Positions 7,117 to 10,605 of a stretch of 32,826 nt of DNA are shown here, piece after piece. Below the pieces are notes generated by a model. The model saw only the letters and a list, made by a program, of their open reading frames with translations, did no database searches and was not told the origin of the DNA. This DNA is from Kofleriaceae bacterium (lineage in GTDB: Bacteria; Myxococcota_A; Polyangia; Haliangiales; Haliangiaceae): NCBI GenBank assembly GCA_022842285.1, contig JALHPV010000046.1, positions 1 through 32,826 on the forward strand. Direction: 5' to 3'. Every line of letters begins with the position of its first letter. Within the stretch, counting starts at the first letter, position 1. Made by a program: the position numbers and the translations under genes.

Positions 7117-8343
7117 GTGCTCGTCGACTTCCTGTTCGAGCTACGGGCGAAGAAGGTCCCCGTCTCCACGCACGAGTGGATGGCGCTGATGGAGGCGATG
7201 GCGCTCGGCCTTCACGAGAGCTCGCTCGATGGCTTCTATCACCTGTGCCGCACGCTCTGCGTGAAGGACATCGCGCGCTACGACGCCTACGACGAGGCGT
7301 TCCTCGCCTACTTCAAGGACGTCCACGTCGACGCCTTGCGGCTCACGCAGGACATCGCCGACTGGCTGCAGAACCCGCGCGCCCTCGAGGGCCTGACCGA
7401 CGAGCAGCGCGCCGCCATGCAGGCGATGGACTTCGAGAAGCTCCGCGAGCTCTTCGAGCAGCGCCTCAAGGAGCAGAAGGAGCGCCACGACGGCGGCAAC
7501 CGCTGGATCGGCACCGGCGGGACGTCCCCGTTCGGCACCGGCGGCAAGCACCCCTCCGGCATCCGCGTGGGCGGGGGCGGTCAGCGCAGCGCCATGGCCG
7601 TGGCCGACAAGCGCCTGTTCAAGGAGTACCGCCGCGACGTCGTGCTCGACGTCCGCCAGATCGATGTCGCCCTGCGTGGCCTGCGCCGCCTCGGCCGCGA
7701 CGGGGCCGTGGAGGAGCTCGACCTCGACGAGACCGTCGACCAGACCTGCAAGAACGCCGGCGAGATCGAGGTCGTCATGCGGCCGCCGCGCCGCAACCGC
7801 GTGAAGGTCATCCTCCTCATGGACGTCGGCGGCTCGATGGATCCGCACGCCGAGCTCGTCTCGCGCCTCTTCACCGCTGCCTCCCGCGCCGGCCGCTTCG
7901 CGAAGTTCCGCAGCTACTACTTCCACAACTGCGTTTACAACTCGGTCTACGAGGACGCGAACTTCAGCAAGGCCGTCCCCGTCGCAGACCTCCTCGCGAC
8001 GAGCGACCGCGACGAGAAGCTCGTCGTCGTCGGCGACGCGCTCATGCACCCCGGCGAGCTCCTCGATCCGGGCGGTAGCCTCTACCTCTCGTCGACGTAC
8101 GGCTCCGGTCGCGCATCGGGCATCGAGTGGCTGCGCCGCCTCGCCCACCACTTCCGGTCCTCCGCCTGGCTCAACCCCGAGCCCGAGCGCTTCTGGTCGG
8201 GCACCACGATCGAGCCCATCGCCTCGGTCTTTCCGATGTTCCCGCTCACCCTCGACGGCATGGCGGCCTCGGTCCGCTACCTCGTGCGCGGCGGCGAGAA
8301 GCCGCGCATCGGCGAACCGGCGAAGTGGATGAAGGTCAGCTAA
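7117..8343 (+). CDS. CoxE-like VWA-domain protein, partner of the MoxR ATPase
   Basis: This is a 408-residue soluble protein of the CoxE-like VWA family (GTG start at 7117, five bases after the MoxR stop). The N-terminal 150 residues are helical ([20 protein letters not shown]). A Gly-rich linker follows ([15 protein letters not shown]). The VWA domain has its MIDAS at residues 236-241, DVGGSM, and [23 protein letters not shown] and a C-terminal helix follow. The usual MIDAS pattern is DxSxS; here the second position is Gly. I recall this variant from CoxE-like proteins but cannot confirm it here. MoxR-VWA pairs usually help insert metals or assemble complexes; the target of this pair is not encoded nearby, so it is unknown. 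Its stop overlaps the stop of the convergent kinase gene by 4 nt. Confidence 0.9.
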
Positions 8344-9500
8344 CCGACGCGGCGGTACGAGCGATCGATCGCGGAGACGATCTTGCCGATCACCGTCGAG
8401 CGGCGCGCCTGGCAGGAGAAGGCCCAGCGCAGCCAGGCCGTGACGTCGTCGGGTGACGCGATGCCCGTGGCCTGCCCGGCCGCCTGGAGCGCGAACTTCA
8501 TCGCGTAGGCATTCTGCCAGCGCAGCGACACGTCCTTCTGGAGCGCGGTGAGCACGATGTCATCGAGGTCGCGCGTGACCTGCGGATTCCAGCGCGAGGG
8601 CGGATCGACGGGCCGCTCGCGAGCATGGCCGAGGGCGCGGGCGAAGTTGCCCCCGAAGCGCGCACTGCCGACGAGGAGCTCGTGGGCGATGACGCCGATG
8701 GCGAAGAGGTCGACGCGCTCGTCGAAGTGGCCCTCCAGCCGCTCGGGCGCGACGTAGCCCTTCGTGCCCTTCACGACGCCGAAGCGCGTGCCCGGGCGGC
8801 CGTCGGCGGTCTTCGCGAGGCCGAGGTCCATGAGCTTGAGATCGCCGGTGCGCGAGATGGCCAGGTTCGCCGGCGAGATGTCGCGATGGATGATGCGCAT
8901 CGGACGGTTGTGGAGGTAGTGGAGCGCGTCGCAGAGCTGGATGAGCAACGCGAGCGCGACCGACACCGGCATCGCGCCGGCGGCAGTGTCGCACTGGCGC
9001 AGGACATCCTCGAGCGAGGGGCCCTCGACGAGCTCGCTCGCGCAGTAGTGGTGGCCCTCGAGGATGCCGAAGGCGAACGTGCGCGCGATGTGGCGGTGAC
9101 AGAGCTGGTGCGCGAGCTGCGCTTCGCGAATGAAGGCGCCGATCAGATCGGGGTCGGTGGAGAACTCGGTACGGAGACGCTCCACGACGATCGGACGGTC
9201 CCAGCCCACCCGCGCGGCCTCGCGCTCCATGGCCCGGTACGATCGCGCGAGACCAACCCGCCCGATCTCCTCGTAGAGGTCATACGGACCGAAGCGCTCG
9301 ATCGAACCGCCGGGCCCGTCGGCCCGGCTTCGCTCGCCCGTCCGGCCGCGCTCGATCGAACCGCCGGGCCCTTCGGCCCGGCTTCGCGCCCCCGTCCGGC
9401 CGCCCTCGACCACACCGCGTCGGGCGCCCCGCTCGATCGCACGGCGCTCGCCCGGAGGTCGCTTCCAGACCAACGTCGGACCGCAGCTATCCGCGCGCAT
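8340..9500 (-). CDS. Hanks-type Ser/Thr protein kinase homologue, possible pseudokinase
   Basis: This is a 386-residue soluble protein. Residues 71-345 show the eukaryotic-like kinase fold: [13 protein letters not shown] (catalytic loop, Asp207, Asn212), MDLGLAK (metal-binding DLG, Asp225), [11 protein letters not shown] (APE region), [13 protein letters not shown] and a final helix with SLRW. The ATP-binding side is degenerate. The Gly-rich loop reads [10 protein letters not shown] instead of GxGxxG, and the VAIK lysine position reads PIVVERL with Glu107 where Lys is expected. The alphaC Glu (FIREAQL, Glu126) is present. The protein may be inactive or may bind ATP unusually. There is no transmembrane segment. 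Residues 35-70 are two 18-residue repeats encoded by a tandem DNA repeat. ATG 9500 is the likely start, but the repeat-rich N-terminus makes it uncertain. Confidence 0.85.
9295..9402. repeat. Intragenic palindromic repeat copies B and C, 54-bp tandem (inside the kinase gene)
   Basis: Two nearly identical 54-bp units (9295-9348 and 9349-9402) begin CGCTCGATCGAACCGC and each contain a perfect hairpin: CCGGGCC (9310-9316) with GGCCCGG (9321-9327), and the same arms at 9364-9370 and 9375-9381. Read on the minus strand they give two 18-residue repeats containing GPGGSIER. Degenerate further units appear to extend to about 9460 (CTCGACCACACCGCG, GCTCGATCGCACGGCG). Confidence 0.75.
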
Positions 9501-9582
9501 GCCGGCAGCATGGCGCGACTCTTACTGACTGCGCCCCAACAAGCCCTGGCTACGCCTGGCTAACAGGGCGCCGGGCGCGTGT

Positions 9583-9595: not shown

Positions 9596-10087
9596 ATGAA
9601 CAAGGTCGCGGGGTTGGCCGTCGTCGGTGCGCTGGCAGGGTGCAGCGGGGGCTCCCGGCTGGATGGCTCCGAGGCGGAGCGAGAGATGAAGGCGTACTAC
9701 GACACGATCTACCCGGTGGGGTCGGTGAACTGCCCCGACCACATCCGCATGGCGGCCGGGACGACGTTCGCTTGCACGCTCATCTTTCGCGGCGGGGCCG
9801 AGAAGTTCGAGGTCCAGGCCAAGGTCAGAGCGGTGAGCGGCCGGGTCGCCACCTACGAGTTCCGGATCGACGCCACCGTCTTCGAGCCTCGCCCGACAGC
9901 GGAGCTCGCGGCCGCGGAGGTGAAGCAGCAGACCCAGCGCGACGTGACCGTCGAGTGCGGCGAGCCACGCCGGCCGAAGGCGACCGAGACGTGTACGGCG
10001 ACGTTCGCCGACGGCACGAAGTGGTGGGTCGTGGTCCACACGAACCCGGATGGAAGCGCGGCCAGGTTCGAGTTGGCCGAGCCGTAG
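9596..10087 (+). CDS. DUF4333-like lipoprotein, copy 1
   Basis: This is a 163-residue predicted lipoprotein (lipobox LAGC, Cys16). The mature part seems to hold two related units of about 60 residues. The first has VNCPDHIRMAAGTTFACTL, the second VTVECGEPRRPKATETCTAT, each followed by a strand-rich stretch (EKFEVQAKV; KWWVVVHTNPDG). The V-x-C-P ... G-x-x-F-x-C-T pattern is that of DUF4333-type domains, small secreted modules with a conserved Cys pair. The function of these domains is not known. A paralogue follows at once, in the same orientation, 17 bp after the stop, so this is a tandem duplication. Confidence 0.75.
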   Translation: MNKVAGLAVVGALAGCSGGSRLDGSEAEREMKAYYDTIYPVGSVNCPDHIRMAAGTTFACTLIFRGGAEKFEVQAKVRAVSGRVATYEFRIDATVFEPRPTAELAAAEVKQQTQRDVTVECGEPRRPKATETCTATFADGTKWWVVVHTNPDGSAARFELAEP

Positions 10088-10092
10088 CGGCT

Positions 10093-10098
10093 TATAGT
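10093..10098 (+). promoter_or_regulatory. Candidate -10 box (TATAGT) 6 nt before ATG 10105
   Basis: TATAGT matches five of six -10 consensus bases and lies in the 17-bp gap between the two DUF4333-like genes, giving copy 2 its own, probably leaderless, transcript. Confidence 0.45.
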
Positions 10099-10104
10099 CG
10101 CGCA

Positions 10105-10605
10105 ATGAGACATCTCGCGGCACTGGGACTCCTGGCCGCCTGTAATGCCGCGGCCGATGGCTCCAGTGCGGAGCGGGCCATCAAGGCTCACTTCGAGAAG
10201 TTCCACCCGGTGACGTCGGTGAAGTGTCCGAGCTCGGTCAAGATGGAAGCCGGCACGGAGTTCGAGTGCGACCTGGTCTTCGGTGACGGCGGGGCGTGGC
10301 ACGTGGGCGCGACGATCACGAAGACGTCCAGCCAGGGCGCGAACTTCGACTTCAAGATCAAGGAGAGGTTCTTCGACCCGACGCCGGTCGCCGCCTGGAT
10401 TGCCGATGAGGTCAAGAAGCAGATGAACGTGGAGGTGAAGGTGGACTGCGGCTGGCCGCGCGTGCCGAAGGCAGCCGAGGAGTGCAAGCTGACCGCGCCC
10501 GATGGCACGGTCAGGATCGCGGTCGTCCAGGTGAACCCGGACGGCACCCCGAAGCGCTTCGACCTGGCCGACCCGGCCACGAACGCCCCCACACCAGCCG
10601 AGTAG
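10105..10605 (+). CDS. DUF4333-like lipoprotein, copy 2
   Basis: This 166-residue lipoprotein (lipobox LAAC, Cys13) is a paralogue of the previous gene. The order of elements is the same: a charged helix SSAERAIKAHFEKFHPV, then VKCPSSVKMEAGTEFECDL, a strand region, and the second unit VKVDCGWPRVPKAAEECKLT with VVQVNPDGTPKRFDLADP. The start is ATG 10105. The frame is open further upstream through copy 1, but only this ATG yields the signal peptide and it has a good -10 hexamer just before it. Two Cys pairs are conserved with copy 1, so disulfides in the periplasm are likely. The function is unknown. Confidence 0.75.
   Translation: MRHLAALGLLAACNAAADGSSAERAIKAHFEKFHPVTSVKCPSSVKMEAGTEFECDLVFGDGGAWHVGATITKTSSQGANFDFKIKERFFDPTPVAAWIADEVKKQMNVEVKVDCGWPRVPKAAEECKLTAPDGTVRIAVVQVNPDGTPKRFDLADPATNAPTPAE

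Follow-up and report, generated by a model that had tools for sequence, protein, structure and literature searches.

The window analysed here, 32,826 bases long, is the whole of one contig (C46) in a 7.9 Mb assembly of 550 contigs from an environmental bacterium. On its minus strand an open reading frame at 8340..9500 (386 residues, stop codon included in the interval, ATG at 9500) encodes a protein kinase homologue. It matches Pkinase (PF00069) at 107.2 bits against a curated cut-off of 31.7, and is thus a Hanks-type bacterial Ser/Thr kinase by family. The original prediction had placed the gene at 8340-9290, an interval that takes in the kinase-domain part and stops short of the full frame; by our reckoning the kinase domain and its C-terminal helices occupy residues 67-386 (8343..9302, minus strand). 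The frame begins over a GC-rich tandem repeat with a 54-bp unit (2.1 copies, 9294..9409, assigned to neither strand), related copies of which are dispersed in the genome: at least 25 matches at E 0.001 or better, the window copy included, were found among the best 40 of 249 candidates. Some of these other copies are also tandem, with a similar unit length. The first 66 codons, which contain the repeat, have a non-coding-like composition (GC by codon position 0.77/0.76/0.82, against 0.71/0.52/0.90 over the whole frame), and the true start codon is therefore uncertain, as is the residue numbering used throughout, which is counted from the ATG at 9500. A plus-strand frame at 8625-9563 (312 residues; GC 0.88/0.52/0.73 by codon position) was treated as a shadow of the kinase frame.

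The kinase gene is convergent with a CoxE-like VWA gene (PF05762; 6985..8343, plus strand), and the two stop codons overlap. Between 6236 and 8343 an AAA ATPase gene precedes the CoxE-like gene; the likeness of this stretch to MadB and MadC is weak (122.8 bits against a cut-off of 475, and 39.7 against 600). Beyond the other end of the kinase gene, and divergent from it, lie two neighbouring DUF4333 coding stretches (9596-10605), both with a start that looks lipoprotein-like by eye. No PADLOC model matched the CoxE-like or DUF4333 neighbours. The kinase homologue itself is matched by 33 PADLOC families, the best being the phage-defence kinase PD-T4-6 (2.9e-56, residues 68-363), with mad6 at 2.9e-42; these are presumably general kinase-domain matches. 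Against the NCBIfam MAD6 model it reaches 85.6 bits, with a cut-off of 460.

Of the PASTA kinase PknB/Stk1 model (NF033483) the kinase domain alone is matched, at 176.2 bits against an equivalog cut-off of 450. AlphaFold2, given an alignment of 20 sequences, predicts a bilobal kinase fold (mean pLDDT 84.2, pTM 0.83) in which the activation loop, residues 167-177 of the model, falls below a pLDDT of 50. The best solved match of the predicted fold is PknB of Mycobacterium tuberculosis (Z 32.5, rmsd 1.8 over 255 residues).

Alignments locate the motifs of the C-lobe: HRD at residues 205-207 (8880..8888), DLG for DFG at residues 225-227 with its metal-binding Asp (8820..8828), and APE at residues 251-253 (8742..8750), all on the minus strand and all intact, as originally predicted. 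The αC glutamate, Glu126 (9123..9125, minus strand), is also retained. The prediction had further read a glutamate in place of the VAIK lysine, within PIVVERL, and a departing Gly-rich loop, GRVGLA, and both readings hold. Glu107 (codon GAG, 9180..9182, minus strand), at the VAIK or β3 lysine position in the sequence and alignments, lies opposite the catalytic lysine of M. tuberculosis PknB in a phmmer alignment; in all 19 aligned relatives (38-46% identity to the kinase homologue) the position is Lys, and the kinase homologue alone has Glu there. The Gly-rich loop runs G80-R-V-G-L-A, with Val82 (9255..9257, minus strand) at its second glycine position in the alignments. A frameshift as the source of this odd N-lobe was rejected, as GLARSYRA and a further segment align in one frame with the relatives.

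The kinase homologue sits within a very large kinome, and by kinome size and sequence character the genome is presumably myxobacterial. At least 151 matches to it at E 0.001 were found in its own genome, from the best 150 of 271 candidates. We assembled 148 hmmsearch domain rows from 120 stretches of this genome (L072-L191) and the window, leaving out places on C352, C231 and C276, and dropped four short rows to give 144 near-full domains, the kinase homologue included. Every one of the 142 other domains with a residue aligned at position 107 has Lys there, and all 142 with one at position 82 have Gly, so that Val82 is unique (143/143 at each position before the short rows were dropped); these counts treat related kinases as independent. 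At position 87, the β2 valine, we found V in 115, I in 23, L in 4 and S in a single domain, which is the kinase homologue (Ser87). Two other changes are weak signs of loss. The VAIK alanine (position 105) is A in 120 domains and V in 23, and the Val of the kinase homologue is thus shared by 22 other domains; similarly, the DFG Phe position is L in 3 of 145 rows, two of them besides the kinase homologue, and W in 8.

Among the 19 relatives 56 residues are invariant, and the kinase homologue has changed 11 of them (82, 87, 88, 105, 106, 107, 196, 226, 246, 281 and 322), including the β3 Lys, the GxG glycine and the β2 Val, all three of which are changed. The changes concentrate in β1-β3 (residues 72-110), where 6 of 11 invariant residues differ, compared with 5 of the 45 outside it (Fisher p 0.004, the region having been picked post hoc; the same test on the whole N-lobe, residues 72-165, gives p 0.15). 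When each relative was left out in turn, it departed at 0-6 of 56-62 invariant positions, compared with 11 of 56 for the kinase homologue. Expressed as a fraction of the relatives' own mean, the mean identity to the relatives rises from 0.56 in β1-β3 through 0.63 for the N-lobe to 0.84 for the C-lobe. Fifteen positions are conserved in at least 95% of the kinome domains; the kinase homologue retains 13 of them, including all 11 in the C-lobe, and has lost Gly82 and Lys107. By this measure it is not the most degenerate domain of the set, which covers the best-scoring kinases (best 150 of 271 candidates) and may miss more degenerate ones: L104 has lost 3 of 15, the kinase homologue 2, seven others 1 each, and 135 none. 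L104 (305-2947; G000:C319) is a degenerate kinase of another type, with HLG for HRD, Ala for the αC Glu, an altered Gly-loop and the β3 Lys retained.

The original prediction had left two branches open, a pseudokinase with a scaffold role or an atypical kinase that uses another lysine, and the second is disfavoured. Lysine is absent from residues 14-221 of the kinase homologue, so a replacement from the N-lobe of the type seen in WNK kinases is unavailable. In the C-lobe, position 209, which we take to be that of PKA K168, is Ser, and position 246 is Thr; Lys246 is invariant in the 19 relatives, in which it may do the work of K168. Across the 144 own-genome domains, positions 209 and 246 are Lys and Thr in 88 and Ser and Lys in 40. 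The kinase homologue has Ser and Thr, and no other domain of the 144 is devoid of Lys at all three positions (107, 209 and 246); ten others carry it at a single one of them. The pairing of 209 and 246 in these kinases resembles the relocation of a lysine. Mapped on a tree, the two traits undergo just 6 changes each; the 3 independent pairs that fall on supported branches do not reach significance, and the pairing is therefore mostly a property of clades.

No orthologue of the kinase homologue emerged from overlapping sets of 56 relatives and 30 family genomes (both at E 1e-70) and of 317 class genomes (E 1e-76): among the matches listed in each, none exceeded 46% identity besides the gene itself. 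The listed matches all fall within the genus (in 11, 11 and 8 genomes of the three sets respectively, counting the kinase homologue's own), and a scan of genome contigs added one distant kinase, at 30% identity, in a Bacillota assembly. The terminal branch of the kinase homologue is long (1.93 against a median of 0.29). Of 16 genomes of the genus that were searched, 15 (own genome included) contain a match to its CoxE-like neighbour, at E 1e-100 or better. We compared the downstream side of CoxE at 14 congeneric loci, five of which end at contig edges; in the nine that reach more than 5 kb past CoxE (L042-L048, L050, L054) no kinase match was found there at E 1e-5.

We conclude that the kinase homologue is probably a pseudokinase specific to its lineage that arose from a canonical subfamily of Ser/Thr kinases in the genus, one characterized by VALK, HRDVSPxN and KGK...APE, and that the conversion looks recent. 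The pseudokinase branch of the original prediction is supported by the changes at the β3 Lys, the GxG glycine and the β2 Val. By the usual definition, a pseudokinase is without one of the β3 Lys, the HRD Asp and the DFG Asp (PMC12599244; PMC4718504); both aspartates are present in the kinase homologue, and it qualifies because its β3 Lys is missing, replaced by Glu107. It would be unlikely to transfer phosphate efficiently. One of these papers describes the β3 Lys, or a Lys standing in for it, as indispensable to catalysis in the kinases cited there, though not always to nucleotide binding (PMC4718504); judged from sequence, activity has thus likely been lost, whereas the loss of binding is less sure. 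The change in the Gly-loop would point toward loss of binding too, and the intact HRD Asp, Asn212 and DLG Asp leave open a weak or unusual binding of ATP.

Residues expected to hold ATP on the N-lobe side are altered (Gly to Val in GxG, Lys to Glu in VAIK, and Val to Ser in β2), and the N-lobe contains no lysine that could take over, whereas the αC Glu and the C-lobe motifs persist, within what is predicted to be a kinase fold. The protein, probably little more than a soluble domain, would then act, if it acts at all, through protein-protein contacts of the retained C-lobe. From that retention we infer a putative role, for instance in scaffolding or in decoying the partners or substrates of active sister kinases. 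The coding-like GC3 of 0.90 supports the pseudokinase reading; on the other side, none of the genomes searched yielded an orthologue sharing these changes, which would have pointed to selection for a non-catalytic role.

The chief alternative to the pseudokinase reading is gene decay, which we regard as possible, though doubtful: a duplicated kinase would have landed beside the CoxE gene, lost constraint on its N-lobe and become a functionless copy on its way to a pseudogene. The lack of an orthologue among the matches listed, the long terminal branch and the kinase-free stretch downstream of CoxE in 9 of the 14 congeneric loci, those reaching past 5 kb, are all as expected of such a copy, as are a start region that crosses a dispersed repeat with non-coding-like composition and a C-terminal tail shorter than in several relatives. 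However, the frame is open across 386 codons with a high GC3, nearly all kinome-conserved positions are kept, the C-lobe ones included, and the changes are clustered in β1-β3 and not spread over the domain.

Two further readings concern the pocket itself. An active but atypical kinase, with the β3 lysine replaced by a different basic residue much as in WNK kinases, would fit the retention of the HRD Asp, Asn212, the DLG Asp and the αC Glu, and the N-lobe does offer several arginines (81, 86, 89 and 108, for example); we nevertheless consider it improbable, given the lysine-free stretch of residues 14-221, the additional loss of the GxG glycine, and Thr at the invariant Lys246. Moreover, the position of the WNK β2 lysine, aligned by eye, is presumably that of Ala85. 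WNK kinases have the catalytic Lys moved to strand β2 (PMC12599244), and the kinase homologue has no Lys there. Still less probable is that the pocket has been repurposed, with Glu107, Glu126 and the DLG and HRD aspartates forming an acidic site that would receive a metal ion or cationic ligand instead of ATP and serve as a ligand-sensing switch. An error of sequencing or assembly at the Glu107 codon, the real residue being Lys, is likewise very unlikely. The headline change is one codon, in a fragmented assembly of 550 contigs where single-base errors are possible, and a second assembly of the species was not found; but five more relative-invariant residues of β1-β3 (82, 87, 88, 105 and 106) are changed in one uninterrupted frame.

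The pseudokinase reading, if right, describes an apparent conversion of a kinase to a pseudokinase within a very large bacterial kinome, seen in one genome so far. A protein in which several nucleotide-binding residues of the N-lobe have changed and the motifs of the C-lobe have been retained is useful for understanding how pseudokinases arise. Bacterial and myxobacterial pseudokinases are already known as a class, to which the kinase homologue would add a further case with a putative role.

The closest comparison is with congeneric kinases (for example L006, L007, L008 and L010; 44-46% identity) that carry VALK and HRDVSPxN motifs. They resemble the kinase homologue in their domain, their HRDxSPxN loop and C-lobe motifs and, by eye, their C-terminal helical end, whereas they have GxGGM, VALK, DFG and KGK where it has GRVGL, VVER, DLG and KGT. 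Several relatives have long, often proline-rich C-terminal tails, in contrast to the kinase homologue, which is without one. In M. tuberculosis PknB, its best structural match, the catalytic Lys is present and the Gly-rich loop intact, neither of which holds for the kinase homologue. Among bacterial pseudokinases, the DYD and DLHK families have lost the β3 Lys, as has the kinase homologue (PMC12599244). From that same description, DYD pseudokinases have Arg at β3, no αC Glu and a DYD motif, in contrast to Glu107, Glu126 and DLG, and the kinase homologue falls outside that family; the DLHK example has AVLT and GFG where the kinase homologue has VVER and DLG (PMC12599244). In Myxococcus xanthus, 11 of 99 Ser/Thr protein kinases are reported to be pseudokinases, and 7 of 22 developmentally regulated genes for such kinases encode them (PMC6791715); it is this class, taken as a whole and not by individual sequences, to which we liken the kinase homologue.
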